From assembly GCA_001664505.1 (NCBI GenBank), contig CP011806.1, positions 4,230,177 through 4,294,176 of the forward strand: a DNA stretch of 64,000 nt. The letters are read 5' to 3'. Of the stretch, positions 4,523-28,254 are shown in pieces. This DNA comes from Acidobacteria bacterium Mor1. GTDB taxonomy: Bacteria > Acidobacteriota > Polarisedimenticolia > Polarisedimenticolales > Polarisedimenticolaceae. The position numbers were made by a program, and so were the translations under genes. The stretch's first letter is position 1. Every line of letters begins with the position of its first letter. The notes under the pieces were generated by a model that was not told the DNA's origin, did no database searches, and saw only the letters and a program-made list of their open reading frames with translations.

Positions 4523-5067
4523 CGCTCTTCGTCGAAGATGCCCGGATCTTCCAACTCGACCGACAACCAGGCCCGGGCCGCCCGCCAATCCCGGGTGGCC
4601 TGGGAGACCGATATGTCGAGCAGCTCGGCGGCCTCGCGGACCTCGAGCCCGGCAAAGAAACGCAGTTCGACCAGCTTGGCCGCACGTTCCGACTGAGCCG
4701 CCAGCTTGTCCAGCGCCCGGTCCACCGCCAGCAAGCGGTCGAGATCGTCGAGGCGTGGATCCGGTTGGCTGTCGGCGGTCACGGCGACCCAGCCTTCGCC
4801 CCGCTTCAGGCTTTGACGCCGGCGGGCGGCGTCGATCAGCACCCGGCGCATCGCGCTGGCCGCCAGTCGTTTGAAGTGCTTCTCGTCGGTGGGCCTGACG
4901 CTCTTGGATCCGGCCAGGCGCAGAAAGGCCTCGTTCAGGAGGGCGGTGCGCTGTAGGGTCGCGCTCGGGTTATGGCGCCAGATCTGGCCGGCGAGGTCCC
5001 GCAGCTCGGTGTAGAGCTCGGCGAAGCGGTCTCCGAGTTCCTCCGGTTTGGGCGGGTCCTTGGACAT
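4519..5067 (-). CDS. ECF-type sigma factor (TIGR02999 / Sigma70_ECF family)
   Basis: 182 residues from the ATG at 5067 (an in-frame ATG at 5085 would add six residues). Region 2 includes LLNEAFLRL and FKRLAASAMRRVLIDAARRR. Region 4 holds the helix-turn-helix ELRFFAGLEVREAAELLDIS. The spacing and the phrase AAxAMRRxLIDxARR are characteristic of the TIGR02999 family, whose members usually sit next to a Ser/Thr kinase with TPRs, as here. The stop codon overlaps the kinase ATG, so the two are translationally coupled. There is no separate anti-sigma gene; the kinase may take that role. I did not find a recognisable ECF promoter. Confidence 0.92.
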   Translation of the reverse strand: MSKDPPKPEELGDRFAELYTELRDLAGQIWRHNPSATLQRTALLNEAFLRLAGSKSVRPTDEKHFKRLAASAMRRVLIDAARRRQSLKRGEGWVAVTADSQPDPRLDDLDRLLAVDRALDKLAAQSERAAKLVELRFFAGLEVREAAELLDISVSQATRDWRAARAWLSVELEDPGIFDEER

Positions 5068-5121
5068 GTTCTCAATGTACTGCACACACCGGGAAGAGGC
5101 TGCTGCGACTCGACCCGGTGG

Positions 5122-5853
5122 TCAATCGCCGGCCGGCGGCGCCGCCGGACCGGGCACCGCGGAACTCACGTGCAGCCCGACCAGCCGCGCGACAAGGATG
5201 GTCAGGTAGATCTGGCCGACGATCGCCTCCCACATGGCCAGCATCTGAGCGGTGGTGCTGACCGGGGAAACATCGCCGTAGCCCAGGGTCGTGAGGGTGA
5301 CGAAGCTGAAGTAGAACAGCACTCCCGAGCGCTGCAGAGGGTCGATCTCGGCCAGGGGCCGGCCGGGATCCAGTGGCGCGGCCAGGGTGAACGAGCCCGG
5401 CACGTACAGCTCGAGGGCCGAGTAGAAGAAGCCCCAGGCGACTCCCAGCATCAGGTAGACGCTCATCGCGCCGCAGAGCCGGTCGCTGGTTACCGCCGTG
5501 CTGGAGAAGAGATCTCGAAGGATGAACACGATCAGCAGCGCCAGGTAGAGCGCCATCGACAGGTGCTCGATGCTCTCGAGCAGCGCGGAGCCGGCCATCA
5601 TCGAATCCGAGAGCAGGATCGAACTCCAGAAGATCGTGACCCCGGGGAGGATCAGCACCAGCCCGGCCCATAGCCACATCCGCTCCTTGCGCATGGCGAT
5701 CAGGCCGGCCACCAGCACCAGTTCGAACACCACGTTGAACAGAACGCGGGCGTCCCGGTGCCCCTCTTCCAGCGGGTAGCTGGTCAGCAGCAGCGAGAGG
5801 GTGATCAGCAACAGCAGGAAGCGATGCCGGGTGAGCCGTTCGGCGAGTCCCAT
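5122..5853 (-). CDS. Six-TM potassium channel-like protein
   Basis: 243 residues with about six hydrophobic segments (near 11-25, 37-54, 59-80, 97-113, 128-148 and 200-226) and a pore loop before the last one. The loop carries the selectivity filter TLGYGD at 189-194, which defines K+-type Ion_trans_2 channels. No voltage-sensor arginine ladder and no cytosolic RCK/TrkA_N domain are visible; the C-terminus is a short Pro/Ala tail. The start at 5853 has GGAGA six bases upstream. The gene is divergent from the AraC regulator. Function: probable inner-membrane K+ conductance; gating signal unknown. Confidence 0.88.
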   Translation of the reverse strand: MGLAERLTRHRFLLLLITLSLLLTSYPLEEGHRDARVLFNVVFELVLVAGLIAMRKERMWLWAGLVLILPGVTIFWSSILLSDSMMAGSALLESIEHLSMALYLALLIVFILRDLFSSTAVTSDRLCGAMSVYLMLGVAWGFFYSALELYVPGSFTLAAPLDPGRPLAEIDPLQRSGVLFYFSFVTLTTLGYGDVSPVSTTAQMLAMWEAIVGQIYLTILVARLVGLHVSSAVPGPAAPPAGD

Positions 5854-5962
5854 GATCTTCTCCGGATTGAGTTCGGGGCCGCCATGGTATCCCCGCCGGA
5901 CGGACGGCCACGGCGGCGGTGGCGCTCGCCGATGGGGCGATGGCGCGATCCGCTAGTGTCGG

Positions 5963-5974
5963 AGGGTGCACCCT
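5963..5974. promoter_or_regulatory. 12-bp palindrome in the channel/AraC divergent region
   Basis: AGGGTGCACCCT is a perfect palindrome 44 bases upstream of the AraC start, followed at 5976-5983 by a second one, TCCTAGGA. Position in a divergent intergenic region suggests an operator or promoter-flanking site; no strong -35/-10 pair is evident. Confidence 0.35.
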
Positions 5975-6017
5975 GTCCTAGGATTAAGTCGATCCTGGGG
6001 GCTCAAAGAGGATCTCG

Positions 6018-7007
6018 ATGTCCGGTTACAGCATATCGCCGCTCTGGAAGGTGCTTTTCGCCGATCTCGGCTTGAATGCCGAGAACGTGCTGCGCCGGGC
6101 GGCTCTACCCGGAGACCTGTTTGCGCGGACGCGGACGACGCTGACCAGCGCTGAGTTCTACGAGTTGTGGCACGGCATGGAGCAGGAATCCGGCGATCCG
6201 CTGTTGCCGCTCCGTATCGGCGAGTCCATCTGTGTGGAGTCCTTCGATCCGCCGATCTTCGCGGCGCTTTGCAGCCCCGATCTGGACACGGCCCTGCGCC
6301 GGCTAGCCCTCTACAAGCGGCTCTGTGGTGCGGTTCGGCTGGAGGTGGAAAGCGACTCCTCGACGACGGCGATGTCGTTGGAATCCCTGGACAAGACGGT
6401 CACCGCACCGGCGAGCCTGCGCTGGATGGAGCTGGTGTTCTTCACCCAGATCGGCCGCATCGGTACCCGCAGCCGGGTCGAGCCGCTACGGGTCGAGACG
6501 CCGCAGCCGCCGCCCCAGCGCGAGGAGTACGCGGAGTTCTTCGGCGTGCCGGTCACCGAGGCGCCGCAGACCCGGCTGGTTTTTTCCCACGCCGATGCGA
6601 CCCGTCCCTTCCTCACCGCCAACGAGAAGATGTGGGAGTTCTTCGAGCCGGAGCTGAAGCGCCGGCTCTCCGAGTTGACGGAAGAGGCAACCACTGCCGA
6701 CCGGGTGCACGGAGCGCTGCTCGAGATGCTCCCTTCAGGGTCGGCCTCGATGGACTCGGTCTCCCGCCGGCTCGGCACCAGTACCCGAACCCTCCAGCGA
6801 AGGCTTCAGCGGGAAGGTCTCAGCTTCCAGCGAGTTCTCGACCGCACCCGGGAATCCCTGGCGCGGCACTACCTGCGGACCTCCAAGCTGACCGGTGCCG
6901 AGATCTCGTTCCTGCTCGGCTTCGAGGACCCGAACTCCTTCTTCCGGGCCTTCAGCTCCTGGACCGGGAAGACGCCGGAACAGGTGCGGGGATCCCGGGC
7001 GTGTTGA
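6018..7007 (+). CDS. AraC-family transcriptional regulator (Arabinose_bd type)
   Basis: 329 residues. The N-terminal ~190 residues match the Arabinose_bd (OruR/ArgR-like) ligand domain, with typical phrases FYELWHGMEQESGDPLLPLRIGE and a following all-alpha/beta stretch. The C-terminal ~85 residues are a double HTH of the AraC class (SVSRRLGTSTRTLQRRL and ISFLLGFEDPNSFFRAF). The ATG at 6018 has GAGG seven bases upstream. Proteins of this class often control lipid, amino-acid or aromatic catabolism genes, but no such operon adjoins it; the nearest divergent gene is the channel at 5122. The effector is unknown. Confidence 0.9.
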   Translation: MSGYSISPLWKVLFADLGLNAENVLRRAALPGDLFARTRTTLTSAEFYELWHGMEQESGDPLLPLRIGESICVESFDPPIFAALCSPDLDTALRRLALYKRLCGAVRLEVESDSSTTAMSLESLDKTVTAPASLRWMELVFFTQIGRIGTRSRVEPLRVETPQPPPQREEYAEFFGVPVTEAPQTRLVFSHADATRPFLTANEKMWEFFEPELKRRLSELTEEATTADRVHGALLEMLPSGSASMDSVSRRLGTSTRTLQRRLQREGLSFQRVLDRTRESLARHYLRTSKLTGAEISFLLGFEDPNSFFRAFSSWTGKTPEQVRGSRAC

Positions 7008-7029
7008 CCGGCGACCCCCGGGACGACCG

Positions 7030-8688
7030 TCACAGAGCCGGGACGCACTTGCAGCTGGTAGTGGTCGGTTCGTCGGCGGCGGTCCACACCGCTTCGTAGC
7101 GCGCCAGCGCCTCGGCAGCCTCTCCGTCCTTGCCCTGGGCCTCGAGGGCCCGGGACAGGCCGAACAGCGACCAGCCGTTTTCCCGCCACTTCTTCAGATC
7201 GTCGCGGAAGACCCGCTCGGCTTCCTCGAAGCGTCCGGCCTTCTGGTAGACCGCGCCCAGGGTGTGCCGGGTCGGCTGCAGCCACTGGGGTGGTTCCCCG
7301 TAGGAAAGCTCATCCTCGATCTCGACGGCGGTTTCCAGCAGCGTCGCGGCTCGATCCAGCTCCCCTTTCTGCAGCGCGATCTCGCCGTCGATGAACCACT
7401 CGCTGACCTCGAGCACCCGGCGAGAGGGGTCGCCGCCGAAGACGCTCTTCTCGGGAACCGCGTCCCGGGCCTCGGCGAACAGTTCCCGTTCCTTCTCGGC
7501 GTTCTCGAAATCGTGGAGCGCGGCGTAGGCCACCGCTCGATGGGCCCGCCAGATGGCGGTGGTGATCGGCAGGTACTCCGGCGGTTCGGGCTCGGCGAGG
7601 ATGTCCTCCCAGCGGCCGAAGCGTTTCTGCACGTCGTAGACCGACGCCATCCACGGGTCGATGAACCCGGCGACCATCTCGAACTTGTCTTCGGGGATAT
7701 CGGCCCAGATGGCGCGGGCGGCTTCCATGGCCTCGGCTTCGCGCCCGACCATCATCGCCGAGAAGGCCAGCATGTGGGCGTTGTGCACCATGTACATGTG
7801 CTGGATCGTCTGGTCCGGCGAGAGCTGGCGGTAGCGGTCGTCGGCCTTCATCGCCATGGCGTTCTGCTTGACCGAGGAATCCCAGCGGCCGACCTGCACG
7901 TAGATGTGGGAAGGCATGTGGTTCAGGTGGCCCGCGCCGGGCATCTGGTTGCTCAACCGGTCGGCGGCGGCGATGCCTCGATCGGGATCGAGGCTCGGCT
8001 CGACCGCGTGGATGTACATGTGGGCGGCGCCGGGGTTGCCGGGGTCGAGTTCCATCACCCGTTCGAGGGTCTCGACGATGATCGGCGTGTCCTCTTCCGG
8101 TTCCCCTTCGGCGCTGTAGAGCTTCCACGGTCGCAGGGTCATCAACGCCTCGGCGTAGAGGGTGCCCACATCGGAGTCATCGGGGTAGGCGGCCCAGACC
8201 TCGCCCATGGCGTCGGCGTAGGCGCGGTTGAGTTTGTCCCGGTTCTTGCGCGGCCGTTTGGAGTAGCGGGTGGCCAGCGCTTCGATCAGCGCCCGCTCCA
8301 GCGGTGTGGTGTTCTCGATTCGCGCCTGGGCCTGCTCGAGGGCGGCCCAGGCGGCGGCCACCCGTTCCTTGGTCATCTGCGCATCGTTGTAGTTGGGGCC
8401 CTCGCATAGAGCGATACCCCACCAGGCCATGGCCAGCTGCGGGTCGAGCTCGGCGGCCCGGGCGAAGGAACGGATCGCCTCGTCATGGTTGAAGGCGTAC
8501 ATCCAGGCGATGCCCTGGTCGAAGTAGTGCTGCGCCTCGGAGCTCTCGGTCGAGACCGGGCGGGTACGGCTACCCAGGCCTTCGAACAGTTGCGCCGAGG
8601 GGCTGTCCTCGATCAGGTGATCGGGGGCGCGCAGCGCGCAGCCGGCCGTGAGTCCGGCAATCAGGACGGCGACGAGTAAACGATGCAT
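7030..8688 (-). CDS. TPR-containing lipoprotein
   Basis: 552 residues. The N-terminus MHRLLVAVLIAGLTAGC has a lipobox with Cys at residue 17, so a membrane-anchored lipoprotein is expected. The rest is helical, with tetratricopeptide repeats near the start (HYFDQGIAWMYAFNHDEAI, FARAAELDPQLAMAWWGIA) and end (LGAVYQKAGRFEEAERVF). The middle has repeated patterns such as ALEQAQ and HNAHMLAFSAMM. Family members are widespread in Acidobacteriota with no assigned role. ATG 8688 is preceded by GGAGG eight bases upstream. It is convergent with the AraC gene, 22 bases apart. Confidence 0.85.
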   Translation of the reverse strand: MHRLLVAVLIAGLTAGCALRAPDHLIEDSPSAQLFEGLGSRTRPVSTESSEAQHYFDQGIAWMYAFNHDEAIRSFARAAELDPQLAMAWWGIALCEGPNYNDAQMTKERVAAAWAALEQAQARIENTTPLERALIEALATRYSKRPRKNRDKLNRAYADAMGEVWAAYPDDSDVGTLYAEALMTLRPWKLYSAEGEPEEDTPIIVETLERVMELDPGNPGAAHMYIHAVEPSLDPDRGIAAADRLSNQMPGAGHLNHMPSHIYVQVGRWDSSVKQNAMAMKADDRYRQLSPDQTIQHMYMVHNAHMLAFSAMMVGREAEAMEAARAIWADIPEDKFEMVAGFIDPWMASVYDVQKRFGRWEDILAEPEPPEYLPITTAIWRAHRAVAYAALHDFENAEKERELFAEARDAVPEKSVFGGDPSRRVLEVSEWFIDGEIALQKGELDRAATLLETAVEIEDELSYGEPPQWLQPTRHTLGAVYQKAGRFEEAERVFRDDLKKWRENGWSLFGLSRALEAQGKDGEAAEALARYEAVWTAADEPTTTSCKCVPAL

Positions 8689-12442: not shown

Positions 12443-15400
12443 TCAGGGGCAGGCGATGCCCGCTCGCGGCGTGCCGCTGCCGTCGTTGCCCAGGCTTCCG
12501 AGCCCGCAGGCGTTGCGCGGCCGCGCCAGATACCAGAAGCCCGCTGCGGCCGCAGGCAGGTCGCCGTCGACCGCCGACGTGCCGGGAGCATCGGCAGCGA
12601 TGCAGGTTTCGTCGATACCGCTACCCACCGGCCACTGTCCCAGCGCGCCGCGCACCAGATCGTAGGTCACGTCCTCCCCGGCTTCTCCCGCCGCGCTGTA
12701 CCAGGAGACCGTTTGCCGGTCCGGCCCGAAGCGCAGTCGTTGCACCTCACCCGGCGCAGCGGTGGAACCCGGGTCTGCCGGAGCGCAATCGCAGGCATCG
12801 GCCAGGCCGTCGCCGTCGAGGTCGGGGTTGCCGGCGAAGTAGCGGCCGCCGGTGTCGATGGCGTCGCCGGCCCAGACCAGCATCGAGTCGCCGGTCCACG
12901 CGGCCAGATGGCGGAAGCGGTTCTTCGGTGCATCCACCGTCGAGGTGTCGGACCAGCTGTTCGACTGGGGATCGTAGCGTCCGCCGTCAGCCTTCTCGTC
13001 GTTGAGCCCCGACTGACTGTTGCGGCCTCCCCAGGCGATGGCGACGCTTCCGGTCCAGACCAGGGTGTGTTCGATCCGCCCCGCCGGGGCGCCGCTGGTG
13101 GTGATGCCGGACCAGCTGTCGGCAGCCGGATCGTAGAGGGAGCCGTTGTTCAGGCTGCCGGTGAAGAAGCCTCCGTCACCGCCCCAGATCATCATCCGGT
13201 CGCCGGTCCAGACCGCGGCGTGGAGGGTGCGTGCCGAAGGGGCGCCGCTGGCCGAGATCGGGCTCCAGCTATCGGTGGCCGGGGCGTAGCGTGCGCCGTT
13301 GCCCAGGAACCCCCCGCCGGAACCCTCGCCACCCCAGACCAGCATCTCGCTGCCGCTCCAGACCGCGGTGTGTTCCCAACGCCCCACCGGAGCGCCGGTG
13401 GTGGGGAGGGGAGTCCAGCTGTCGTTTGCCGGGTCGTAGCGTCCGCCGTCGTTCCAGTAGTTGGCCCGTTCGACGCCACCCCACACGATCATCTCGCTGC
13501 CGGTCCAGACGGCCCGGGACTTGGTGCGCGCCGTCGGCGCGTCCACGCCGTTGATCGGCGTCCACAGGTCGGTCAGCGGGTCATAGCGCGCGCCTCCGTT
13601 CCGGTACCCGGCGACGCCGGCATAGCCGCCCCAGAACAACGCTTCGCTTCCGCTCCAGATCGCGACCGGGTTCTCCGCCGCCGGGGGAGCATCGAGGGTC
13701 GGCAGCGGCGTCCAGGTCTCGAGGACCGGGTCGTAGCGTCCGCCGTCGGCGAAGTAGGTGCCGAAGTCCGATCCACCCCAGACGATCAGTTCACTGCCGG
13801 TCCAGACCGAGCCTGCGGAGAGGCGCGGTAGCGGAGCGTCGCCGCGGCCGGTAGGGCTCCAGGTGTCGGCCTGGGGATCGTAACGGGCTCCCGTGTTGCG
13901 CGGGCTCGACGAGTTGTCGCCGCTACCCCAGAGCAGGAACTCGCTGCCGGTCCAGACGAAGGGGAACTGGGAGCGAGCCGCCGGAGGCTCGAGCACCGTC
14001 ATCGGCGTCCAGCTGTCGGCGACCGGGTCGTAGAGTGCGCCGTCATCGTAGACCGCGGCGGTGTAGCGGTCGCCGCCCCAGATCAGCATGGCGCTGCCGG
14101 TCCAGACCGCGCCGTGGCCTGCGCGCCATTCGGGAGTGCCGCTGTCACTGATCGCGGTCCAGCTGTCGAGAGCGGGGTCGTAGCGTGCGCCGTCCCGGAC
14201 GAAGGCCAGGACATCTTCGGGATCCGCCGTGCCGCCCCAGATCAACATCTCGCTGCCGTTCCACACTGCGCTGTGATCCAGCCGCGGGCTCGGCGCGTCG
14301 GCGCTCGCGATCGCGGTCCACGAATCGCTCTGCGGGTCGTAGCGGGCGCCGTCTCCCAGCGGGGTGAAGCTGCCGCCTGCCGTCAGGCTGCGGCCGCCGA
14401 AGATCAGCATGGCGCTTCCGTTCCAGATCGCGCTGTGCTCGACGCGGTCCGCCGGAGCGCCGGACGTATCGAGGGGCGACCAGGAGTCGGTGACCGGGTC
14501 GTAGCGGCCGCCGCTATTCACCGAGGCTCCGCTGGCGTCCCGGCCGCCGAAGAGAATCATCTCGCTGCCGGACCAGACTGCCGTCGGCTCGCGCCGCGCC
14601 GAGGGAGCCCCGGCGGCGGGAAGCGGCGACCAGGCGTCCAGGGCCGGGTCGTAGCGGCCTCCGCCGGAGACCACCGCGGCGGGATCGTTTTCATCGGTGG
14701 TGCCGCCCCAGACCAGCATCTCCTCGCCGGTCCAGACGGCGGCGTGGAAGTAGCGCGCCGGCGGTGCACCGATCGACGAGATCGGACTCCAGCGATCGAG
14801 CAGCGGGTCGTAGCGGGCGCCGTTCCGCAGCGCTCGCGGCTGATTCAGGAACCAGTTGGCGCCGCCCCAGACGATCGCCTCGCTGCCGGTCCAGATCATG
14901 CTGTGGCCGCCCCGTTCGACCAGATCGTCCAGGGCGCCGTTGGCCCAGCTGTCGTCGGGAACACAACTCGGGTCGACCGTCGCCAGGCTCGATGCCGCCT
15001 CCTCGACGGACCAATCCGGATCGGCCAGGTCGAGGGCGTCGGCGTCGGCAGTGAAGCGGTCGCGGCTCCGGGTCCACCAGTCCTCGAAACTCTCAGCGAT
15101 GCTGTCCGCCGGCGGCTCGGAGCGGAACAAGGCACGGGCGGTGGTTTCAGCCAGTCCGGGCCAGGCCAGGGTTTCCTGGATCCGACGCGAATCGTCGCCG
15201 AGAACGGTGAACATCTCACGCAGTCTCGCGGGGAAACGGCTCTCGCGGACGATCCGATGCATCTCGCGGCGCAGATCGGTTCGGGTCAGCGGCCGCTGCC
15301 AGACGGCGTCCAGGGCGACGGAGAGCCGTAGCGTGTCCTCCACGCTCCGGCGCATACGCTCCCGCAGCAGGGCCTCGTCCGGTTCCGAGGCGCCTTCGCG

Positions 15401-15529
15401 CATCGCGTGACGCAAGCGCTCGACGGCGAGCCGGTCGTCGAGGCGGGATTCGAGGGAGGTGTCGCCCGGCCAGGCTGCCAGGCAGGCAGCGGCGAGGACC
15501 GGGATCAGACAGACGATGCGCAGCTTCAT
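12443..15529 (-). CDS. Secreted Kelch-like beta-propeller repeat protein
   Basis: 1028 residues. A signal peptide (MKLRIVCLIPVLAAACLAAW) is followed by ~190 helical residues. Then come 13 complete and one partial ~48-residue Kelch/galactose-oxidase-type repeats, each reading roughly VWTGSEMLVWGG, RYDPxxDSWxP, GAPxxR. After them is a single TSP3-like segment (DLDGDGLADACDCAP) and the ~90-residue C-terminal domain shared with four other proteins here (FWYLARPRNACGLGSLGN, ending ACP). Two seven-bladed propellers would fit 14 repeats. Start 15529 chosen for the signal peptide; the frame is open a further nine codons. Probably a surface or periplasmic binding protein; no catalytic residues are evident. 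Confidence 0.88.
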   Translation of the reverse strand: MKLRIVCLIPVLAAACLAAWPGDTSLESRLDDRLAVERLRHAMREGASEPDEALLRERMRRSVEDTLRLSVALDAVWQRPLTRTDLRREMHRIVRESRFPARLREMFTVLGDDSRRIQETLAWPGLAETTARALFRSEPPADSIAESFEDWWTRSRDRFTADADALDLADPDWSVEEAASSLATVDPSCVPDDSWANGALDDLVERGGHSMIWTGSEAIVWGGANWFLNQPRALRNGARYDPLLDRWSPISSIGAPPARYFHAAVWTGEEMLVWGGTTDENDPAAVVSGGGRYDPALDAWSPLPAAGAPSARREPTAVWSGSEMILFGGRDASGASVNSGGRYDPVTDSWSPLDTSGAPADRVEHSAIWNGSAMLIFGGRSLTAGGSFTPLGDGARYDPQSDSWTAIASADAPSPRLDHSAVWNGSEMLIWGGTADPEDVLAFVRDGARYDPALDSWTAISDSGTPEWRAGHGAVWTGSAMLIWGGDRYTAAVYDDGALYDPVADSWTPMTVLEPPAARSQFPFVWTGSEFLLWGSGDNSSSPRNTGARYDPQADTWSPTGRGDAPLPRLSAGSVWTGSELIVWGGSDFGTYFADGGRYDPVLETWTPLPTLDAPPAAENPVAIWSGSEALFWGGYAGVAGYRNGGARYDPLTDLWTPINGVDAPTARTKSRAVWTGSEMIVWGGVERANYWNDGGRYDPANDSWTPLPTTGAPVGRWEHTAVWSGSEMLVWGGEGSGGGFLGNGARYAPATDSWSPISASGAPSARTLHAAVWTGDRMMIWGGDGGFFTGSLNNGSLYDPAADSWSGITTSGAPAGRIEHTLVWTGSVAIAWGGRNSQSGLNDEKADGGRYDPQSNSWSDTSTVDAPKNRFRHLAAWTGDSMLVWAGDAIDTGGRYFAGNPDLDGDGLADACDCAPADPGSTAAPGEVQRLRFGPDRQTVSWYSAAGEAGEDVTYDLVRGALGQWPVGSGIDETCIAADAPGTSAVDGDLPAAAAGFWYLARPRNACGLGSLGNDGSGTPRAGIACP

Positions 15530-15601
15530 GGGTGCCCCGGAGGTTCGGACCGCCAACTGGAGATACGGCGAATCCGGGTCCGGGGCAAACCCGGGGAGCT
15601 T

Positions 15602-17519: not shown

Positions 17520-18608
17520 CTATTCCGGCCGCATCGGGTCGAACCGGAGCAGGTGATCGACCAGGGTCAGCGCCGTCATCGCCTCGACGATCGGCACCGC
17601 CCGGGGCAGCACGCAGGGGTCGTGGCGGCCCGAGGCGGCAAGCTCCGTCGGTTGCCCCTCCCGGGTCACCGTCTGCTGGGGCTTGCCGATGGTCGCCACC
17701 GGCTTGAACGCCACCCGGAAGGAAAGATCCTCGCCGGTGCTGATCCCGCCCAGGGTGCCGCCGGCGCGGTTGGCCATCGGGCGCGTCTTGCCCTGGTCGT
17801 CGAGGCCGAAGGGGTCGTTGTGTTCGCTGCCCCGCATGCGGGTGCCTTCGAAGCCGGAACCGATCTCGAAGCCCTTGACCGCGTTGATGCTGAGCATCGC
17901 CTTGCCCAGATCGGCGGGCAGTTTGTCGAAGACCGGTTCGCCCAGGCCCGCCGGCACGTTGCGCACATAGCCGCGAAGGATGCCGCCGATGCTGTCGCCG
18001 TCGGCCTGCACCTCCTTGATCCGTTCGATCATCTTCTCGGCGGCGGCCGGATCGGGGCAGCGCACGATGTTGGACTCGATTGCCTCGGCGGTAACCGTTG
18101 CCGGATCGATCGATGCTTCCAGTTCGCCGACGGTCTCGACCCAGCTCAGGATCTCGGTGCCGGCCCGCTCCCGCAGGATCTTCTTGGCCACCGCTCCGGC
18201 GGCGACCCGGGCCAGGGTCTCCCGGGCCGAGGCCCGGCCGCTGCCCCGCCAGTCGCGGAAGCCGTACTTCAGTTCGTAGGTGAAGTCGGCGTGGGACGGC
18301 CGGTACAGGGTGCGCAGCACGTCGTAGTCGCCGGGGCGGGCATCCTTGTTGTGCGCCAGCAGCAGGATCGGCGTGCCGGTGGTCCTGCCCTCGAACACGC
18401 CCGAGAGAATCTGGATCGTGTCCTGTTCCTTGCGGGGCGTGGTGATCTCGCTCTGTCCCGGCTTGCGCCGGTCCAGCTCGGGCTGGATGTCGTCGGTCGA
18501 AAGCGTCAGTCCGGGGGGGCAACCGTCGATCACGGCGCCGACACCTCCGCCGTGGGATTCGCCGAAGGTGGTGATGCGGAACAGGTGGCCGAAGCTGCTG
18601 CCGGGCAT
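17520..18608 (-). CDS. aroC: Chorismate synthase
   Basis: 362 residues, the normal length. Catalyses the last shikimate-pathway step, EPSP to chorismate, needing reduced FMN. All three family signatures are present: [20 protein letters not shown] near the N-terminus, [15 protein letters not shown] in the middle and [19 protein letters not shown] near the C-terminus. The conserved histidines at GESHG and RHDP are intact. No other aromatic biosynthesis gene is adjacent; the redoxin gene upstream is 54 bases away on the same strand. Confidence 0.98.
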
Positions 18609-18662: not shown

Positions 18663-19220
18663 TCAGGGACTCGTTTCCGGCATCGCGCAGCCGGTTTCGT
18701 CGCAGCCCTCGTCGGGCGCGTCCGGCGGGTCTGTTTGCTCCGCCGGCGTGGCTCCGAGGAGTCGGGCGATGGCCGCTCCCAGTACGAGGTCCTGCTCGAC
18801 GCCGAAGGACTGTCGGCGCAGGTTCCCTTCCCGGTCGATCAGGATCTGAGTCGGGGTACCGCGCATGGCGTAGGCGGCCATGGTCCGTGGAACGCCACCG
18901 CCGGGAGAGGGAGCGTCGATGCCGACGGGGAAGCGCAGCCGGTACTCGTGGAGGAATGCCTCGAGCGCTTCCCGGCTCCCCTGGGCTTTGTGGTGCTCGA
19001 ACACCGTATGCAGCCCGAGGACCGCGACCTCGTCAGGGTCGAAGGTCTCCGCGACCCGGGTGGCCTGGGGTAGGCCGTGGGACACGCAGCCCGGGCAGAG
19101 CATCTGGAATGCCTCGATCAACACCACTTTGCCGCGGAGCTGTTCGAGGCTGAGCGGGTGCGGCGTATTGAGCCACGTCGAGACCTGTAGTTCGGGCGCC
19201 TTGCGATGGTTCATGGTCAT
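18663..19220 (-). CDS. Redoxin / TlpA-like thiol-disulfide protein
   Basis: 185 residues from ATG 19220 (19214 is an equally good in-frame start; GAGGG lies just upstream of both). The thioredoxin-fold redoxin domain carries a CPGC active site at residues 42-45 in AFQMLCPGCVSHGLPQ, and the cis-proline region RGTPTQILIDREGNL. There is no signal peptide, so it is probably cytosolic. The C-terminal tail is acidic and carries two extra cysteines (DEGCDETGC), which is unusual for the family and might form a second redox pair. Function inferred: peroxide or disulfide reduction. Confidence 0.85.
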   Translation of the reverse strand: MTMNHRKAPELQVSTWLNTPHPLSLEQLRGKVVLIEAFQMLCPGCVSHGLPQATRVAETFDPDEVAVLGLHTVFEHHKAQGSREALEAFLHEYRLRFPVGIDAPSPGGGVPRTMAAYAMRGTPTQILIDREGNLRRQSFGVEQDLVLGAAIARLLGATPAEQTDPPDAPDEGCDETGCAMPETSP

Positions 19221-19303: not shown

Positions 19304-20059
19304 TCACTTCCGCAGGAAGCGCCGGCGGTCGGGGAGGCTGAAGGTCCGCGGCAGGCTGAGGTCGCCGCTGAGGACGCTGTAGACCCGATAGACGCCGAGC
19401 ATCGGCCGGTTGGCGTCGGAGGCGTTGACCTGCATGTAGGCCACCACGGCGTCGTAGTTGAAGCTCTCCAGGTCGCGGATGCGCCAGCCGGGAACCACGA
19501 TGCGCAGCCGGTCGCGGTAGGTCACGATGGTGTGGCCGGGGGAGTCGAGATAGATCGGCATGCCCGGGGCGGTCGGGGGCAGGACCTCGCTCGGTTCGCC
19601 GGCTACCGCCTTGACCGACAGCCCGCCTGCGACCCGTTCGTCGGGGACCAGCACGACCCAGTGGGCGTGGAACACCCGGCCGTCTGCGGCGTCCCCGTAG
19701 TCGCCGTTGCCGTTCTCATCGAAAAGCGGCGTGTCGTCGAAGTCCGGATGGCTGGTCGCGGCCAGGGCGACGATGCCTTCTCCCGGCGCAAATCCGACCT
19801 GCTCCGGGCGCAGCGTGGTGGGGAAGACGTAGCCCAGGACCGGCGCCCCGTCGACCTGCCCGGCGGGCTCGGGGAAGGTGCCCCCTGCGTTCCCTTCGAC
19901 CTGGATCTCGAAGACCAGGGCGTCGATATCCACTCGGTACTCGACCTTGGCACGTTCGACGTTGAAGTCCTCGGAGGGCTCGAGGGGGGTGGGGTCCACG
20001 GCCAGCGCCGGCGTGGCAAGGGCGAGCAGGGTCACCAACGTGAGAAGCATCTGTTTCAT
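19304..20059 (-). CDS. Exported protein of unknown function, divergent from MarR regulator
   Basis: 251 residues. MKQMLLTLVTLLALATPALA is a clear signal peptide. The mature part is rich in beta-type sequence and Pro/Gly, with no cysteine; notable phrases are VFHAHWVVLVPDERVAGGLS and YLDSPGHTIVTYRDRLRIVVPGW. I do not recognise the family. It may be a periplasmic binding or dehydrogenase-accessory protein. It is divergent from the MarR gene, and three palindromes fill the space between them, so it is probably the regulator's main target. The start at 20059 is preferred over the open frame to 20326, which would cover the operators. Confidence 0.75.
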   Translation of the reverse strand: MKQMLLTLVTLLALATPALAVDPTPLEPSEDFNVERAKVEYRVDIDALVFEIQVEGNAGGTFPEPAGQVDGAPVLGYVFPTTLRPEQVGFAPGEGIVALAATSHPDFDDTPLFDENGNGDYGDAADGRVFHAHWVVLVPDERVAGGLSVKAVAGEPSEVLPPTAPGMPIYLDSPGHTIVTYRDRLRIVVPGWRIRDLESFNYDAVVAYMQVNASDANRPMLGVYRVYSVLSGDLSLPRTFSLPDRRRFLRK

Positions 20060-20094: not shown

Positions 20095-20109
20095 GTATCG
20101 AGTCGATAC
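20095..20109. promoter_or_regulatory. Putative MarR operator 1
   Basis: GTATCGA-G-TCGATAC, a perfect 15-bp palindrome with a one-base centre at 20102. It is the first of three related sites between the exported-protein gene and the MarR gene, lying 35 bases upstream of the former's ATG. Confidence 0.6.
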
Positions 20110-20193: not shown

Positions 20194-20208
20194 GTAGCGA
20201 CTCGCTAC
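20194..20208. promoter_or_regulatory. Putative MarR operator 3
   Basis: GTAGCGA-C-TCGCTAC, a perfect 15-bp palindrome with centre at 20201. It differs from site 1 by one symmetric base per arm and sits 20 bases upstream of the MarR ATG, where binding would block transcription or initiation of the regulator itself. Confidence 0.6.
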
Positions 20209-20228: not shown

Positions 20229-20798
20229 ATGAGCGGCGAGACCGATCGATCCCGTAAGCGCGTGCTGATGCTGTTGGAGCGGCTGGGGCGGCTGATGCAG
20301 AGCCGCGGCCACGAGTTGGGTCTCAAGCCGGTTCAGTGGGAGGCGCTACGCTACCTCTCCCGGGCCAACCGCTTCTCTCGCACCCCCAGCGGGCTGACCG
20401 CCTATCTCGGTTCGACCAAGGGCACCGTCTCCCAGACCCTGATCGCCCTCGAGAGCAAGGGGCTGATTCGCAAGAAGTCGGACCCGGGCGATCGCCGGGC
20501 GGTGCGTCTGGAGTTGACCGCGGCCGGCCGCCGGGCGCTCGGGAGCGACCCGCTGCTGGAGTTCGCCGAATCGGTGGGTGCCCTGGGGAAAGTGGGGGAG
20601 GGGACGCTGGAGCGAAACCTGACGGCCCTGCTCACCGAGCGGTTAGAGCAGATCGAGGGCCGGCCTTTCGGCATTTGCCGTACCTGCACTCATTTCGAGA
20701 AGAACGCTCCCGAGGGCAAACCCCACCGTTGCGGGCTGCTGGAGCTTCCGCTTTCAGCCGACGAGTCCGAGCAGATCTGCGTCGAGCAGGAGAGCTAG
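20229..20798 (+). CDS. MarR-family regulator with C-terminal four-cysteine motif
   Basis: 189 residues; ATG 20229 has GGGGAGG six bases upstream. Winged-helix MarR core at about 10-140, with recognition helix region YLGSTKGTVSQTLIALESKGLI and wing KKSDPGDRRAVRLELT. The C-terminus adds a compact cysteine motif, C150-x2-C153-x14-C168-x15-C184, within GICRTCTHF, HRCGLLELPL and EQICVEQES. Such a spacing is suited to an Fe-S cluster or Zn site, so the protein may sense redox state, oxygen, iron or NO. It probably represses itself and the divergent exported protein through the three palindromes. The cofactor is inference. Confidence 0.9.
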   Translation: MSGETDRSRKRVLMLLERLGRLMQSRGHELGLKPVQWEALRYLSRANRFSRTPSGLTAYLGSTKGTVSQTLIALESKGLIRKKSDPGDRRAVRLELTAAGRRALGSDPLLEFAESVGALGKVGEGTLERNLTALLTERLEQIEGRPFGICRTCTHFEKNAPEGKPHRCGLLELPLSADESEQICVEQES

Positions 20799-20879: not shown

Positions 20880-23291
20880 CTACATCCGCGGGAACAGCGC
20901 CTGGAGCATGTCGTCGGTACGCCCGCTCCAGATCGCCCAGCCGAAGCCCTCGGGCACTTCGCCACCGGCGGGGCTGTAGCCCTTGTCGCGCATGGCGTCC
21001 CAGGCCCGGGCGTTGTTGGCGCCCATGTCCCAGGCTTCGTGGGGGGAGCGCAGGTCGTAGCGTCCCCAGTTCATGTAGACCAGCATCGGCTGCTCTTCGG
21101 CGGTCTTCAACATGTCCCAGATCGGCACGCTGAACAGCTGCGCCGACTGGCTGCCCACCCGGCTGAAGACGTCGGGATGGTTGATGCCGCCCAGTAGCGC
21201 CGCGGTCCCGCCGCCGGACACGCCGGCGATTCCCCGGTGGCCCGCTTCGGCCATGGTCGGGAACTTCTCGTCGATCATCGGGACGATTTCCTTGGTCAAC
21301 ATCTCGAGCAGCGCCGGCGGCGGGTCGGCACGGCCGCCCTCCTCGGCGGGCAGTACGAACACGACGATGGCCGCTTCCATCGACTCGCCGATCAGGTTGT
21401 CCAGGGTGTTCTTCATCATGCCGGTGTCCAGGGCGGCTTCACCGTTGGCGTAGTAGAGGGTCGGGTAGCGTTTGTCCGCGCCGGCACTGAACCCGGCGGG
21501 GAGGTAGACCTTGACCTCGCGGCTCTGCTTCTCTTCCTTCTCCTCGCCGTCGACCTGCCGGGTCACCGTGCGTTCCCAGGTGACGCTTTCGAGGGTGCCC
21601 TGCCGTCCGGCGGGCGCTTCGGCGGTATGGGCCGGTGCGTCCCAGGCGGGCATGGTCAGCCGGGAAACGTCGCCGAACAGGCCGCTGGACTTGTGCTCGT
21701 TGCGCGGATCCGGACCTGGTTGGTCGGCGTAGGCCTCGATGAACCCGTAGGACACCGCGGCGTCAGGCTCCAGCCGCGCCGAGTAGAAGAACAGGTCGGT
21801 GCCGTCGACCTTGACCATCGGATCCTCGCGGCGGAAACCGATCAGGTCGCTGACGATGCCGACATCCTCGGCGTCTCCCTGGAACACGAAGTGCGCCAGG
21901 TCCGGACCCTCGATGATCGGGAAGGAGCTCTGCTTGGCCATGAAGGCGTCGACCACGGCCTGCTTGTCGCCGGCTTGCTGCACTTCCTGCAGGAAAGCGC
22001 CGAACTCGGTCTGGCCCAGCCAGGCGTATTCGTTTTCGATCACCGCAGCGGTCGCCGCCGCGGCGACGTCGATGCGGGCCAGCTCACCCATGCTGCGGGC
22101 GTAGAGGTGCTTACCCGAGAAGGCGGTTTCGGACCAGGAGTGCTCGTCCTCGGGGAACAGCCGCACCGAGGCCAGCTCCTGGTAACCGTCGGGAGAGGCC
22201 TTGGCCACGTGCAGGGTGCCCGGCTTGGTCATCACCACCAGCTGGTCGCCGATCACGGTGATGAAGCCGTCTCCAGGCTCGCGGGAGCGCCACTTGCGTT
22301 CGCCGCTTCCTGCGTCGATGCAGGTCAGCACCCGGCCGGAGATCCCGTAGAGGTGGCCGTCGTGGTAGACCGGGGTGACGTAGCTGCTCTTGAGGGCGTT
22401 GCTGCTCCAGAGCTCGTCGACCTTGTAATCGAGTTCCTTGTCCGCCTTGACCTGGACCATCGACGATGAGTCCTGCTTGTTCATCAGGAACAGCCGTCCG
22501 TCGCCGGCGGGAACCGGCACCATCGACGCGCCGCCCATGGCCCGCTCGTCGCCGCCGTGCTCGTGAGACCAGAGGGTCTTGCCGCTCTGGGCCTCGAGTC
22601 CGTAGAGGTGGGTGCTGGAGACCGCGACCACCATCGGCTTACCGTCGATCACCGCGGCGATGGGGGACTGGTACTCGACCTTTCCGCTGCCGGTGCTCCA
22701 GAGCATCTCGCCGCTCTTCGGGTTGAAGCCGGCGATCGCCTTGTCCTCGGCGCCGATCTCCACGATCAGCACGCCGTCGACCATGATCGGCGAGGTGGAG
22801 AAGCCGTAGTGCGGCTTGCGGCCGCCGTGGTCGTCGGCCAGGTGGGTGCTCCAGACCGGGCTCCCGTCGGCCAGCTTGACCGCGAACAGCTCGCCCCAGC
22901 CGCCCAGGCCGAAGACGTGGTCTCCGGCGATCAACGGCGTGGCGATCGGTCCGTCGTGGGAGCCGTCGTGGCCGTCGTAGGGCTTGCCCAGGCCGTGGCG
23001 CCACAGTTCCTCGCCGCTCTCCACGTCGAAGGCGCCGACGAAATCGTGCTCGTCGCCGTGGAACATGACCACGACCCGGTTGCCCACCACCGCCGGCGAG
23101 GAGTAGCCGGAGCCGATCGGGACCTTCCAGCCGATCTCGAGGCTCGAACGGTCGCCGAGCAGCCGGCCGCCGGGCACGGAGCCGGAGGTGTCGGGCCCGC
23201 GGAACCCGGGCCAGTCCGCCGAGGCGTTCAGGGCCAGCCCGAACAGAGCCGCGCCGAAAAGCGCGATACGAAGTCCATTCATCCGAAACAT
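20880..23291 (-). CDS. Exported PQQ-like beta-propeller fused to an esterase-like domain lacking the catalytic His
   Basis: 803 residues from ATG 23291, which has AAGGAG eight bases upstream (GTG 23300 is the alternative). A signal peptide precedes a PQQ-type propeller of ~390 residues (DWPGFRGP, repeated GxxxW blades such as SGEELWRHGLG and SGKTLWSHEHGG). An immunoglobulin-like segment then leads to a C-terminal esterase D/Fes-like alpha/beta hydrolase. Nucleophile elbow GVSGGG and a probable acid in GRYDLR are present. In the terminal motif, where the family has GGHxWxxWR, this protein has EGFGWAIWS, so the catalytic histidine is replaced by Phe. It may be a binding protein or a non-standard enzyme. 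Confidence 0.85.
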   Translation of the reverse strand: MFRMNGLRIALFGAALFGLALNASADWPGFRGPDTSGSVPGGRLLGDRSSLEIGWKVPIGSGYSSPAVVGNRVVVMFHGDEHDFVGAFDVESGEELWRHGLGKPYDGHDGSHDGPIATPLIAGDHVFGLGGWGELFAVKLADGSPVWSTHLADDHGGRKPHYGFSTSPIMVDGVLIVEIGAEDKAIAGFNPKSGEMLWSTGSGKVEYQSPIAAVIDGKPMVVAVSSTHLYGLEAQSGKTLWSHEHGGDERAMGGASMVPVPAGDGRLFLMNKQDSSSMVQVKADKELDYKVDELWSSNALKSSYVTPVYHDGHLYGISGRVLTCIDAGSGERKWRSREPGDGFITVIGDQLVVMTKPGTLHVAKASPDGYQELASVRLFPEDEHSWSETAFSGKHLYARSMGELARIDVAAAATAAVIENEYAWLGQTEFGAFLQEVQQAGDKQAVVDAFMAKQSSFPIIEGPDLAHFVFQGDAEDVGIVSDLIGFRREDPMVKVDGTDLFFYSARLEPDAAVSYGFIEAYADQPGPDPRNEHKSSGLFGDVSRLTMPAWDAPAHTAEAPAGRQGTLESVTWERTVTRQVDGEEKEEKQSREVKVYLPAGFSAGADKRYPTLYYANGEAALDTGMMKNTLDNLIGESMEAAIVVFVLPAEEGGRADPPPALLEMLTKEIVPMIDEKFPTMAEAGHRGIAGVSGGGTAALLGGINHPDVFSRVGSQSAQLFSVPIWDMLKTAEEQPMLVYMNWGRYDLRSPHEAWDMGANNARAWDAMRDKGYSPAGGEVPEGFGWAIWSGRTDDMLQALFPRM

Positions 23292-23655
23292 GCCGTCCAC
23301 TCCTTAAATATTCGACCTGGGCCGGGCCATCCGGGCCGGGCCGGACCGGGCAGGTCCGGAGCCCGCGCCCCGCTCCCCGGGTGTCGAGTCGAAGTGCGCC
23401 TTTCTTGTGGCACTTTTCACCGATCCGGGACCCTACAGGATAGCCTCCAGAACTGTCTGAGGGACCTGATTTACAAGCTTTGACAACGGGCGGGCGCCGC
23501 CGGAATTCCCGGCCTGGTCCCCCGGCCCGCAGAGCGGCCCCAGGGGTGGGCGGGGGATCCGCCGGGGAGGGTGCATTTCGACCCAGGCTTCACTAGAATA
23601 CTCGGCCTTCATCAGGCCGTATCCGGGGCATTAGAGCCCATATCGAGGTCATTGC
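23292..23655. other. Divergent intergenic region, PQQ/esterase versus nqr operon
   Basis: 364 bases without a gene. The Shine-Dalgarno of the leftward gene is at 23300-23305. Possible rightward signals are a TTGACA at 23480-23485 without a fitting -10, and TAGAAT at 23594-23599 without a good -35, about 60 bases before nqrA. The left half is a GC-rich stretch with short inverted repeats of GGCC/CCGG type. No small ORF with a convincing ribosome site is seen. Confidence 0.4.
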
Positions 23656-25011
23656 GTGGGTGTCTACAAGATCCGCAAAGGGTTGAACGTCCCGATCTCC
23701 GGCGAGCCGCGCCAGGAGATCTCCGACGGTCCCAAGATTCGTCGGGTCGCTCTCGTAGCGGACGACTACATCGGCATGCGGCCGACCATGGCGGTCGGTC
23801 CCGGCGACTCGGTCAAGACCGGCGACCTGCTGTTCACCGACAAGAAAACCGAGGGGGTGCGCTACACCTCGCCGGCCACCGGTACCGTCGCTTCGGTCAA
23901 CCGCGGTGAGAAGCGCAAGTTCGAGTCGGTGGTCATCGATTTGTCCGGCGCCGAGGAGCGGGTTTCGTTCAAGGCGTACAGCCTGTCGGAGATTCCCAGC
24001 CTCGCTCCCGATCAGATTCGCGAGAACCTGATCGAGTCGGGCATGTGGCCTGTCTTCCGCACCCGGCCCTTCAGCCGGGTTCCGGCGATCGACAGCACGC
24101 CCCACGCGATCTTCGTCACCGCCATCGACACCCACCCGCTGGCTCCCGATCCGGCGGTGGTGCTGGCCGGCAAGGCCGAAGCGTTCCAGACCGGCCTCAA
24201 GCTGATCGCCCGCCTGGGCGCCAAGTCCACCTACCTGTGCACCGCTCCGGGGGCGGATATCCCGGGCAAGGATGTCCAGGGCGTGGAGCTTGCCGAGTTC
24301 CAGGGGCCGCACCCCGCGGGCCTGGCCGGTACCCACATTCACATGCTCGATCCCGTCGGGCCGGACAAGGTGGTCTGGACCGTCGGCTACCAGGACGTCG
24401 TCGCCATCGGCGAGTTGTTCCGCACCGGTGAGCTCTACACCGACCGGGTGGTCTCCCTGGCCGGCCCTTCGGTCCGCGAGCCGCGTCTGGTCCGCACCCG
24501 GGTCGGCGCTTCGCTGGAAGATCTCACCGTCGATCAGCTGATCGAAGATCACGTGCGCCGCATCTCCGGCTCGGTCCTCGGCGGCCGCACCGGCACCGAC
24601 GTCCACGGGTTCCTGGGCCGCTATCACAACCAGGTCTCGGTGCTGCGCGAGGGGAACTTCAAGGAGTTCCTCGGCTGGCAGAAACCCGGTTTCGACAAGT
24701 TCTCGGTCAAGCGGACGTTCCTTTCGGCCCTGCGCGGCGGCAAGGCCCGCTACGCGATGACCACCAATACCAACGGAAGCCCCCGCGCGATGGTTCCCAT
24801 CGGTTGCTATGAGCAGATCATGCCGCTGGACATCCTGCCGACCTTCCTGCTGCGCGCGCTGACCGTCAACGACACCGACCAGGCCCAGGCCCTGGGAGCC
24901 CTGGAGCTCGACGAGGAGGATCTCGCCTTGTGCACCTTCGTCTGTCCCGGCAAGACCGAATACGGTCCGCTGCTGCGGGACAACCTGACCCTGATCGAGA
25001 AGGAGGGTTAG
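23656..25011 (+). CDS. nqrA: Na+-translocating NADH:quinone oxidoreductase subunit A
   Basis: 451 residues, as usual. NqrA is the membrane-associated, cytoplasmic subunit linked to quinone binding; it has no transmembrane helix. The N-terminal [14 protein letters not shown] and the downstream phrases [12 protein letters not shown] and [14 protein letters not shown] are typical. Start is a GTG at 23656. It is the first gene of an eight-gene operon in which neighbours overlap or are a few bases apart. The complex couples NADH oxidation to Na+ export and so supplies a sodium-motive force. Confidence 0.97.
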
Positions 25012-25013
25012 GC

Positions 25014-26240
25014 GTGAAGTTCCTCGAGAAGCAACTCGACAAGATGGAGCCGCTGTTCCTCAAGGGGGGCAAGCTCGAAAAGCTCTATCCGCTGTGGGAA
25101 GCCCAGGACACCTTCCTGTTCTCTCCCAAGAGCGTGACCAAGACTTCGGCCCACGTCCGCGACGCGCTGGATCTCAAGCGCATGATGTCGATGGTCATCG
25201 TGGCGCTGATCCCCTGCATCTTCATGGCGATGTACAACACCGGCCTCCAGGCCAACATCGCGATGGAAAACCTCGGCGTCGACTCCCAGGCGGGTTGGCG
25301 CGGCGCGGTGCTCGACGGCATCGGCATCGGGTATGACCCGGGGAACTTCCTGGCCTGCCTGCTCCACGGAGCCCTGTTCTTCCTGCCGGTCTACATCGTC
25401 TGCATGGCGGTGGGCGGTGCCTGGGAGGCGTTGTTCTCGATCGTCCGCGGTCACGAGATCAACGAGGGCTTCCTGGTCACGGGCATGCTGTTCCCGCTGA
25501 CGCTGCCGCCGACGATTCCGCTGTGGCAGGTTGCGATCGGCATCAGCTTCGGCGTCGTGGTCGGCAAGGAAATCTTCGGTGGCACCGGCCGCAACTTCCT
25601 CAACCCGGCGCTGACCGCCCGCGCGTTCCTCTACTTCGCCTATTCCAACCAGATCGTCGGAGACACGGTCTGGACCGCCGTCGACGGCTTCAGCGGCGCC
25701 ACGCCTCTGGGCGCCGCGGCGATCGCCGCTCCCGGGCAGGTGGTCCAGGACATGGTCGCCACCGTGGGCAGCATGCAGAACGCCTTCCTCGGCACCATCC
25801 AGGGCTCGATGGGTGAAACCTCGACCCTGGCCTGCATCATCGGCGCCGCGATCCTGATCGCCACCGGCGTCGGCTCCTGGCGGATCATGGCGGGGTGCGT
25901 CGCCGGAGCCGCCGGTTTCGCGGCACTGCTCAACTGGGCCGGATCCGACACCAACGCCATGTTCGCGGTTTCGCCGCTGTGGCACCTGGTGATCGGCGGC
26001 TTCGCCTTCGGCACGGTCTTCATGGCCACCGACCCGGTTTCGGCGGCGATGACCAATCCCGGCAAATGGGTCTACGGCGCGCTGATCGGCGCCATGACCA
26101 TCCTGATTCGCGTGATCAACCCGGCGTATCCCGAAGGGATCATGCTGGCGATCCTGTTCGGAAACGTGTTCGCTCCGCTGATCGACTATTTCGTCGTTCA
26201 GTCCAACATCAAGAGAAGGTTGGCTCGTTATGGCGCGTGA
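25014..26240 (+). CDS. nqrB: Na+-NQR subunit B
   Basis: 408 residues from GTG 25014, with GGAGGG just upstream inside the end of nqrA. Polytopic membrane subunit (about 10 helices) forming the main Na+ path. It carries covalent FMN on Thr230 in the motif [10 protein letters not shown], and the riboflavin-binding region is also expected here. Other family phrases: [20 protein letters not shown] and [17 protein letters not shown]. The FMN must be attached by ApbE, which is encoded five genes downstream. The 3' end overlaps nqrC by 11 bases. Confidence 0.97.
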
Positions 26241-27018
26241 TACCGTCGGGCATACCATCCTCGTGGCGGGCGTCCTCTGCGTCGTCTGTTCGGTGATCGT
26301 CTCGGGGCTTGCAGTCGGACTGCGGGCCCAGCAGGTCGAGAACCGACTGGCGGAAAAGCAGAAGAACATCCTGCTCGCCGCCGGCACCTACGACGAGAGC
26401 AAGCCGGTGGCCGACCAGTTCGGCAACATCGAGTCCAAGCTCGTCGACCTCGAGACCGGCACCTTCGTCGAAGACGGGTCGATCGACACGGCGACCTACG
26501 ACCAGCGCAAGGCGGCGGCCGATCCGGCGCTCTCCATCGAGATCGCCGGCGATGACGATCTCGCCGGAATCAAGCGCCGCGAGAAATACGCCTTCATCTA
26601 CGTGGTCAAGGACGACGCCGGCAACATCGATCAGTTCGTGCTGCCGATCTACGGCAAGGGGCTGTGGTCGACGCTCTACGGCTTCATCGCCGTCGACGAC
26701 GACATCCAGACCGTCAACGGCCTGACCTTCTACGAGCACAAAGAGACCCCCGGTCTCGGCGGCGAGGTCGACAACCCCAAGTGGAAGGCGCTCTGGCCGG
26801 GCAAGCAGCTGTTCAACGACTCCGGCACCCTGGCCATCGAAGTGATCAAGGGCCAGGTCACGGCCAACACCAGCAACGCCCAGCACAAGGTCGACGGACT
26901 GACCGGAGCCACGATTACCGCTCGTGGCGTCGGCAATACCCTGCAGTACTGGCTCGGCGACAACGGGTTCGGGCCCTTCCTCGAGAACTTCCGTACAGGA
27001 GCCCTGCAAAATGGCTGA
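26230..27018 (+). CDS. nqrC: Na+-NQR subunit C
   Basis: 262 residues. One N-terminal transmembrane helix ([19 protein letters not shown]) and a periplasmic FMN domain. The flavinylation motif is [13 protein letters not shown], with FMN expected on Thr228. Most NqrC have SGAT; here it is TGAT, within the range ApbE accepts. Family phrases [15 protein letters not shown] and [16 protein letters not shown] are present. It overlaps both nqrB (11 bases) and nqrD (8 bases). Confidence 0.97.
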
Positions 27019-27636
27019 TAAGCCCAAGGACGTCCTGCTCAATCCGCTGTTCAACGAGAACCCGATCGCCCTGCAGGTGCTCGGGATCTGCTCGGCGCTG
27101 GCGGTGACCACCTCGCTCAAGCCGACCCTGGTGATGTGCATCGCGGTGATCTTCGTCATCGCCCTCTCCAACACCTCGGTCAGCCTGATCCGCAATCAGA
27201 TCCCCAGCAGCATCCGCATCATCGTGCAGATGACGATCATCGCGTCGTTGGTGATCATCGTCGACCAGGTGCTGCAGGCCTACGCCTTCGAGATCAGCAA
27301 GCAGCTGTCGGTGTTCGTCGGCCTGATCATCACCAACTGCATCGTGATGGGCCGCGCCGAGGCCTTCGCGATGAAGAACGCTCCGGCGATGAGCTTCCTC
27401 GACGGCATCGGCAACGGGTTGGGCTACAGCCTGATCCTGCTGGTGGTCGGCTTCGTCCGCGAGCTGTTCGGCTCGGGCAAGCTGGCCGGTATCGAGATCT
27501 TCAAGACCCAGACCGACGGCGGCTGGTACCTGCCCAACAACATGATGCTGCTCTCGCCCAGCGCGTTCTTCATCATCGGCTTCTTCATCTGGGCGCTGCG
27601 TAGCTGGAAACCGGATCAGGTGGAGGAAAGCAACTG

Positions 27637-27637
<1 letters not shown>
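27011..27637 (+). CDS. nqrD: Na+-NQR subunit D
   Basis: 208 residues from ATG 27011. Six transmembrane helices. Together with NqrE it holds the intramembrane iron centre between conserved cysteines; [16 protein letters not shown] and [16 protein letters not shown] contain these Cys positions. The pseudo-twofold similarity to NqrE is visible in the shared [10 protein letters not shown] / [10 protein letters not shown] segments. Its stop overlaps the nqrE ATG (TGATG). Confidence 0.97.

Positions 27638-28254
<617 letters not shown>

Follow-up and report, generated by a model that had tools for sequence, protein, structure and literature searches.

A MarR-family regulator with a conserved four-cysteine C-terminal tail, divergent from a P0002-redoxin gene pair, in Acidobacteria bacterium Mor1

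Few regulators are as common in bacteria as those of the MarR family, whose known members respond for the most part to small molecules or to single thiols; what, then, would a member of this family with four cysteines gathered in its C-terminal tail be sensing, and which genes would it control? The regulator raising this question is encoded within a 64,000-nucleotide stretch of Acidobacteria bacterium Mor1 DNA (contig CP011806.1), the whole of which is referred to here as “the window”. The answer preferred, and given roughly even odds (a probability of about 0.5), is an autoregulated MarR-type repressor whose Cys4 tail would bear a cofactor, most likely an Fe-S one, and which would respond to NO or a related oxidant. 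The features that this answer draws upon are:

18663 to 19214, minus strand: P0003, an AhpC/TSA-redoxin protein with a CPGC site and a C-terminal CDETGC
19304 to 20059, minus strand: P0002, the divergent gene, 251 aa, its family present in 25 of 61 homologous loci
20095 to 20109, no strand: O1, operator-like palindrome GTATCGAGTCGATAC, the only perfect copy of GTATCGAnTCGATAC in the 6-Mb genome
20144 to 20158, no strand: O2, operator-like site GTATCGACTAAATAC, with an identical site in Agarilytica (L080)
20194 to 20208, no strand: O3, operator-like palindrome GTAGCGACTCGCTAC, 20 bp upstream of the regulator ATG
20229 to 20798, plus strand: P0001, the MarR-family regulator, 189 aa, above the gathering score for Pfam MarR_2/MarR
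20676 to 20780, plus strand: the Cys4 tail motif C150-x2-C153-x14-C168-x15-C184, full in 54 of the 60 loci returned by the searches

By the domain test, the protein is a member of the MarR family: the Pfam search gave 48.5 bits for MarR_2 (PF12802; cut-off 27) and 36.1 bits for MarR (PF01047; cut-off 24.6), both matches falling in residues 30-92 (about 30-100), and the normal winged helix that a preliminary description had placed ahead of the tail is thus real. The start is the ATG at 20229, with an in-frame TTG at 20211. There is no Rrf2 model among the Pfam and NCBIfam matches of the regulator, and the NCBIfam model of the zinc-dependent MarR protein AdcR (NF038251) is not matched by it, while eight relatives score at most 37.4 bits against that model's cut-off of 175. 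Within the host genome no second four-Cys relative appears at E 0.001, the other genomic match (L199) being a 27 % hit with a single cysteine, and no relatives were found in viral contigs.

The only cysteines of the regulator are C150 (20676-20678), C153 (20685-20687), C168 (20730-20732) and C184 (20778-20780), residues 1-149 having none, so that the four cysteines and the C-x2-C-x14-C-x15-C spacing reported previously are exact. The collection of homologues with this spacing, as proposed in the preliminary description, was drawn from two profile searches, one across 396 genomes of the window's phylum, Acidobacteriota (matches in 30 at E 1e-10), and the other across 398 genomes of the phylum of a Mesorhizobium hit (matches in 25 at E 1e-15). 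Besides the 54 loci with the full motif (taken here as C-x2-C-x(6-24)-C-x(13-17)-C), the 60 loci returned, the window and the Mesorhizobium protein used in the query profile being counted among them, comprise five with tailless relatives (L073 and L109-L112) and one with a disrupted end; as the search profile included the tail, this retrieval favours tailed proteins. The disrupted one (L113) has three cysteines and an end that is out of register, which is the sole incomplete set among the 60 loci. The same regulator, appearing as L125 in the neighbourhood set, stands alone among the tailed homologues of the sets in having its fourth Cys position disrupted, and its genome also has a second, intact copy (L094/L124). 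The motif is likewise present in a further match of the second search that came without a locus and was fetched as L119, and all four cysteines are there in each of five close homologues (49-53 % identity; four from Rhizobiales and one from a Lysobacterales MAG), meaning that the loss of the cysteines among close homologues, named beforehand as the outcome that would speak against a cofactor, did not occur.

The 54-locus set used for the neighbourhoods has 53 loci matching the motif, with a Cys2-Cys3 loop of 10-21 residues and 15 residues between Cys3 and Cys4 (the spacing script took the fit nearest 15 where several fits existed). Once eight near-duplicates are removed, the four Cys columns are occupied in 46/46 of the aligned homologues, L125 qualifying only via its misplaced terminal Cys, and 18 hand-picked diverse tails have the four cysteines and one Leu as their only invariant columns. 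With the DNA-binding part scored alone across the 60 loci, the best 17 are all tailed, and yet the tailless L109-L112, at 65-96 bits, outscore a distant tailed group at 23-50 bits, from which it follows that the tail was lost or gained at least once and that the tail and the DNA-binding part are not simply coupled.

As to the nature of the tail, this region lies outside every Pfam match of the window regulator and outside every NCBIfam match of the regulator and eight relatives, a tail profile run against the PDB gave, with a limit of E 10, five sequences, all of them short and weak matches that favour neither kind of cofactor (E 0.026 over 19 residues for the best one), and an AlphaFold2 model from a six-sequence alignment has a mean pLDDT of 66, falling below 50 over most of residues 142-189. 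Among the papers listed by full-text searches, whose coverage is mostly without subscription journals, none recognisably describes this Cys4 tail. The conserved pattern is of the kind seen where cysteines coordinate a metal or cluster, and the nearly all-or-none conservation of the cysteines lends sequence-level support to the cofactor that had been suggested to sit on them. It is very likely that the tail binds a metal or a cluster, and this cofactor is probably Fe-S, which is more likely than zinc.

Zinc is, however, the main rival to the Fe-S reading: the tail would then be a small Zn module that stabilises the dimer, or one that senses zinc or thiol oxidation via Zn release. Four cysteines with one CxxC knuckle also fit Zn, but Zn ribbons usually have a second CxxC knuckle, and the tail does not have one. 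A metal-free switch, with the cysteines forming disulfides or persulfides on oxidation in the manner of OhrR- or MexR-type MarR proteins, agrees less readily with the same data, seeing that all four cysteines are kept together in the 60 loci with the one exception of L113, and that the cysteine-free residues 1-149 are the region where OhrR-type sensors carry theirs (the reactive Cys of such sensors is in the N-terminal region).

The divergent partner, P0002, has an apparent signal peptide (judged by eye) and no match in Pfam or NCBIfam, and its family occurs in Pseudomonadota, Bacteroidota and the window's phylum, mostly within 400 bp of the regulator in the loci where the distance was measured. 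Residues H104, D106, D109, D114, E115, N116, D126, H131 and H133 are invariant in 13 P0002 homologues, as is the core H-P-D-F-x-D-T-P-L-x-D-E-N ... D-G ... H-x-H-W-V, which looks metal-binding. The P0002 model has a pLDDT of 54 and finds no PDB match at E <= 0.001 by Foldseek, a profile of the 13 proteins has one match among PDB sequences (E 0.99), and P0002 was not found in phage records. The redoxin, for which both the CPGC site and the extra C-terminal cysteines noted earlier are present, the latter as CDETGC, starts 89 bp downstream of P0002 on the same strand, and the two genes are likely to form one operon. This pair is repeated in L118, L121 and L125, and the Lysobacterales contig L005 has the redoxin alone divergent to the regulator, all of which supports the redox link that had been drawn from the redoxin gene. 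Of the ten redoxins in the locus set, that of the window among them, nine have CPGC and six a C-terminal Cys pair. Farther out in the window, the redoxin is followed on the same strand by the chorismate synthase gene aroC (17520-18608, minus strand) and a long kelch-repeat protein lies at 12443-15556 (minus strand); on the other side there are a protein combining a PQQ/BamB-type beta-propeller with a putative esterase domain (20880-23300, minus strand) and nqrA-E in order (23656-28251, plus strand), coding for subunits A-E of the Na+-translocating NADH:quinone reductase, each above its NCBIfam cut-off.

Control of the neighbouring genes was approached through 61 loci, i.e., the 54 (window included) plus seven plasmid loci, with an eighth, unannotated plasmid locus left out. 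The full motif is carried by 60 of them, all seven plasmid loci included, L125 being the disrupted one. These loci were fetched from the search matches by choice, passing over the tailless matches, and since several are from near relatives, and L085 and L126 have the same regulator, the counts are not independent. The controls were 20 MarR loci from the window's phylum only, and they are of similar length (median of 10.1 kb vs 10.5 kb for the homologous loci).

The window has a divergent regulator-P0002 layout with three palindromic candidate sites in between, and palindromic operators in such a layout are typical of the MarR family. O1-O3, all of the GTATCGAnTCGATAC type, are 49 and 50 bp apart and make up three of the 14 GTATCGAnTCGATAC sites that the genome has with at most two mismatches; further targets of the regulator elsewhere in this genome are possible. 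Allowing up to three mismatches between 300 bp upstream of the regulator gene and 90 bp inside it, a GTATCGAnTCGATAC-type site is found in 30 of the 61 loci, 20 of which have two or more, whereas rearranged palindromes of the same composition are found in 3, 0 and 2 (a fourth control palindrome was malformed, scored 0 loci and was left out). The sites fall mostly in one group, L138 being the only bearer among the 20 fetched loci of the window's phylum, and within the site-bearing group, judging by these sequences, the regulator very probably acts on its own gene and on the gene beside it. The genome-wide count at up to three mismatches (166 vs 22 for the reversed pattern) was set aside as operator evidence and taken to reflect composition. 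A second site type, TTAGGAnTCCTAA, has exact palindromes upstream of L145, L149 and L152, but it was rejected as an operator type, its 12 of 61 loci not beating all of its controls (15, 0, 7 and 1).

Neighbour families, counted by phmmer over whole loci with sequences derived in the analysis as queries, give P0002 in 25 of the 61 loci, thioredoxin-like proteins in 17, MOSC and redoxin in 10 each, DUF2024 and Rof in 9 each, and, more rarely, cytochrome P460 (6), protoglobin (5), HTHP (3), DUF438-hemerythrin (3) and YgbA_NO (1), vs none in the 20 control loci; the marker families were picked after viewing the neighbourhoods, which makes this contrast post hoc and descriptive. Hmp was counted in four loci, three of which (L085, L087 and L126) have PDR/VanB-type oxidoreductases by annotation, leaving that of Hymenobacter. 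Any heme or NO gene is thus present in 16 of the 61 loci (19 before the PDR/VanB-type proteins were removed) vs 0 of 20 controls, and within the window's phylum in 10 of 20 vs 0 of 20; eight of the 61 loci have no marker at all. There is no NO gene adjacent to the regulator in the window itself, and in Leisingera thetidis and Octadecabacter a redox theme close to the regulator is absent.

A second tally, not preselected, took the Pfam families of the two nearest ORFs per side, the top 25 families being considered and the ORF picker sometimes having taken antisense ORFs in GC-rich DNA. For 77 neighbour proteins of the window's phylum, it has DUF2024 (3), histidine-kinase ATPase (3), protoglobin (2), P460 (2), and DUF438 and hemerythrin (2), while RND efflux and TonB receptors rank first for the 78 control neighbours, and MOSC (4) and ROF (3) lead the 107 neighbours of the other set. 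In the window's phylum, this unselected tally points the same way as the marker counts. Individual arrangements include P0002-HTHP-redoxin-MOSC divergent to the regulator in Ruegeria pomeroyi, cytochrome P460 directly before it in Thermus thermophilus, divergent thioredoxin-DUF2024-Rof genes in Pseudomonas aeruginosa, YgbA_NO next to the regulator and followed by a ferredoxin-type protein in L149, and, on a Hymenobacter volaticus plasmid (L086), catalase, P0002, HTHP, protoglobin, DUF2024 and a Cys4 MarR in a row. The stretch 1-8633 of this L086 locus also holds hmp, an Rrf2 regulator, a Rof-clustering gene and MOSC, and is possibly a stress island.

The genes found beside the regulator in its relatives, then, indicate a theme of thiol-redox, heme and NO stress. 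For zinc, the recurrence of redox, heme and NO genes is unfavourable, as is the lack of a zinc transport family among the top 25 nearest-neighbour families, and the zinc reading is considered unlikely. Redoxin, thioredoxin-like and GST-type genes adjoining the regulators would suit a purely thiol-based switch, although, with the joint retention of the cysteines and their absence from residues 1-149 weighing against it, such a switch appears decidedly improbable. An ordinary MarR protein responding to a small-molecule ligand and serving its local operon, with the tail as a mere structural extension, would account for the MarR domain, the family-typical divergent layout, its intergenic palindromes and the existence of tailless relatives, but hardly for cysteines that are invariant in an otherwise variable tail or for the redox/heme/NO theme of the neighbours, and is very improbable.

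In the preferred reading of a cofactor-bearing, autoregulated repressor, the motif and its retention among homologues, the palindromes conserved beside the regulator and the recurring gene order are observed parts, to which the following steps would be added. Each subunit would carry a single cofactor, most likely an iron-sulfur cluster, in its C-terminal C-x2-C-x(10-21)-C-x15-C module. As long as this cofactor is intact, the regulator would bind the GTATCGAnTCGATAC-type sites that separate its gene from P0002, binding that is predicted from the palindromes, and would thereby keep the regulator gene and the P0002-redoxin operon repressed. Attack on the cofactor by NO, or by a related reactive nitrogen/oxygen species, would abolish binding and induce the operon. 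That the regulator represses rather than activates is something we infer; a search for sigma-70-like promoters found none, which leaves no promoter overlap from which repression could be read. NO or reactive nitrogen as the signal is plausible, if somewhat short of an even bet, and the many loci with only thiol-redox genes mean that oxidant or disulfide stress fits as well. A broader reading, which can be offered only tentatively, would have a widespread class of Fe-S MarR-fold repressors sensing NO or reactive nitrogen, many of them controlling a secreted His/Asp-rich P0002 family that gives protection from NO or peroxide beyond the cytoplasm; the spread would take in Pseudomonadota, Bacteroidota, Deinococcota and the window's phylum, and, taken jointly with this reading and just as tentatively, the regulator class and the P0002 family would both be undescribed. 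A widespread MarR subfamily with a conserved four-Cys module would extend the known sensor classes by one based on a metal or a cluster, the regulator would gain a role in bacteria that are being studied (Pseudomonas aeruginosa, Thermus thermophilus, Ruegeria pomeroyi and Phaeobacter), and the orphan stress genes P0002, DUF2024, HTHP, protoglobin and P460 would join testable regulons. The Cys4 MarR regulator is conserved across several phyla and lends itself to direct tests.

Among known systems, the design has a precedent in the [4Fe-4S] NO sensor ArnR of Corynebacterium glutamicum, which, according to passages of PMC12343034, likewise has an N-terminal MarR/ArsR-like winged helix and a Cys-bearing C-terminal part, so that an Fe-S design on such a winged helix does work; the same passages state that, once the [4Fe-4S] dimer of ArnR is in its di-nitrosyl form, promoter DNA is no longer bound. 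By that description, ArnR has three conserved cysteines (179, 193 and 223) and no fourth, unlike the four at other spacings in a short tail seen here, its C-terminal part is weakly similar to TRAPPC3, and nearly all ArnR homologues come from Actinobacteria (PMC12343034). With the number and spacing of the cysteines and the C-terminal part being different, the likeness is one of concept only, and ArnR was rejected as a member of the same family, the comparison being one of descriptions. CioR of Chromobacterium violaceum, with a Cys at 52 and its place in the GbsR subgroup as given in a passage of PMC11837568, was likewise rejected as a relative. NsrR follows a logic like the proposed one, its intact cluster repressing and NO derepressing hmp, ytfE and ygbA, which passages of PMC1274295 describe as NO-responsive NsrR targets in E. 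coli. The overlap of these genes with the neighbours in the relatives' loci consists of hmp and ygbA, but NsrR is of another DNA-binding family (Rrf2), to which the window regulator has no match. The MarR oxidant sensors of the OhrR/MexR/OspR type share the MarR fold and the redox theme; their sensing relies on one or two thiols, with no metal involved, in place of which there is a Cys4 tail here. The same Cys4 tail is found in a Pseudomonas aeruginosa protein, WP_003086060.1, encoded on a plasmid, which we take to be PA0942. PMC10344964 is among the papers that name PA0942 or its neighbours; in the passages considered from others, these figure only in expression tables, gene lists or a list of oxidative-response genes. 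Unlike the window, the stretch around WP_003086060.1 is without P0002, while it has the same operator type with one mismatch and, divergently arranged, the thioredoxin-DUF2024-Rof genes.
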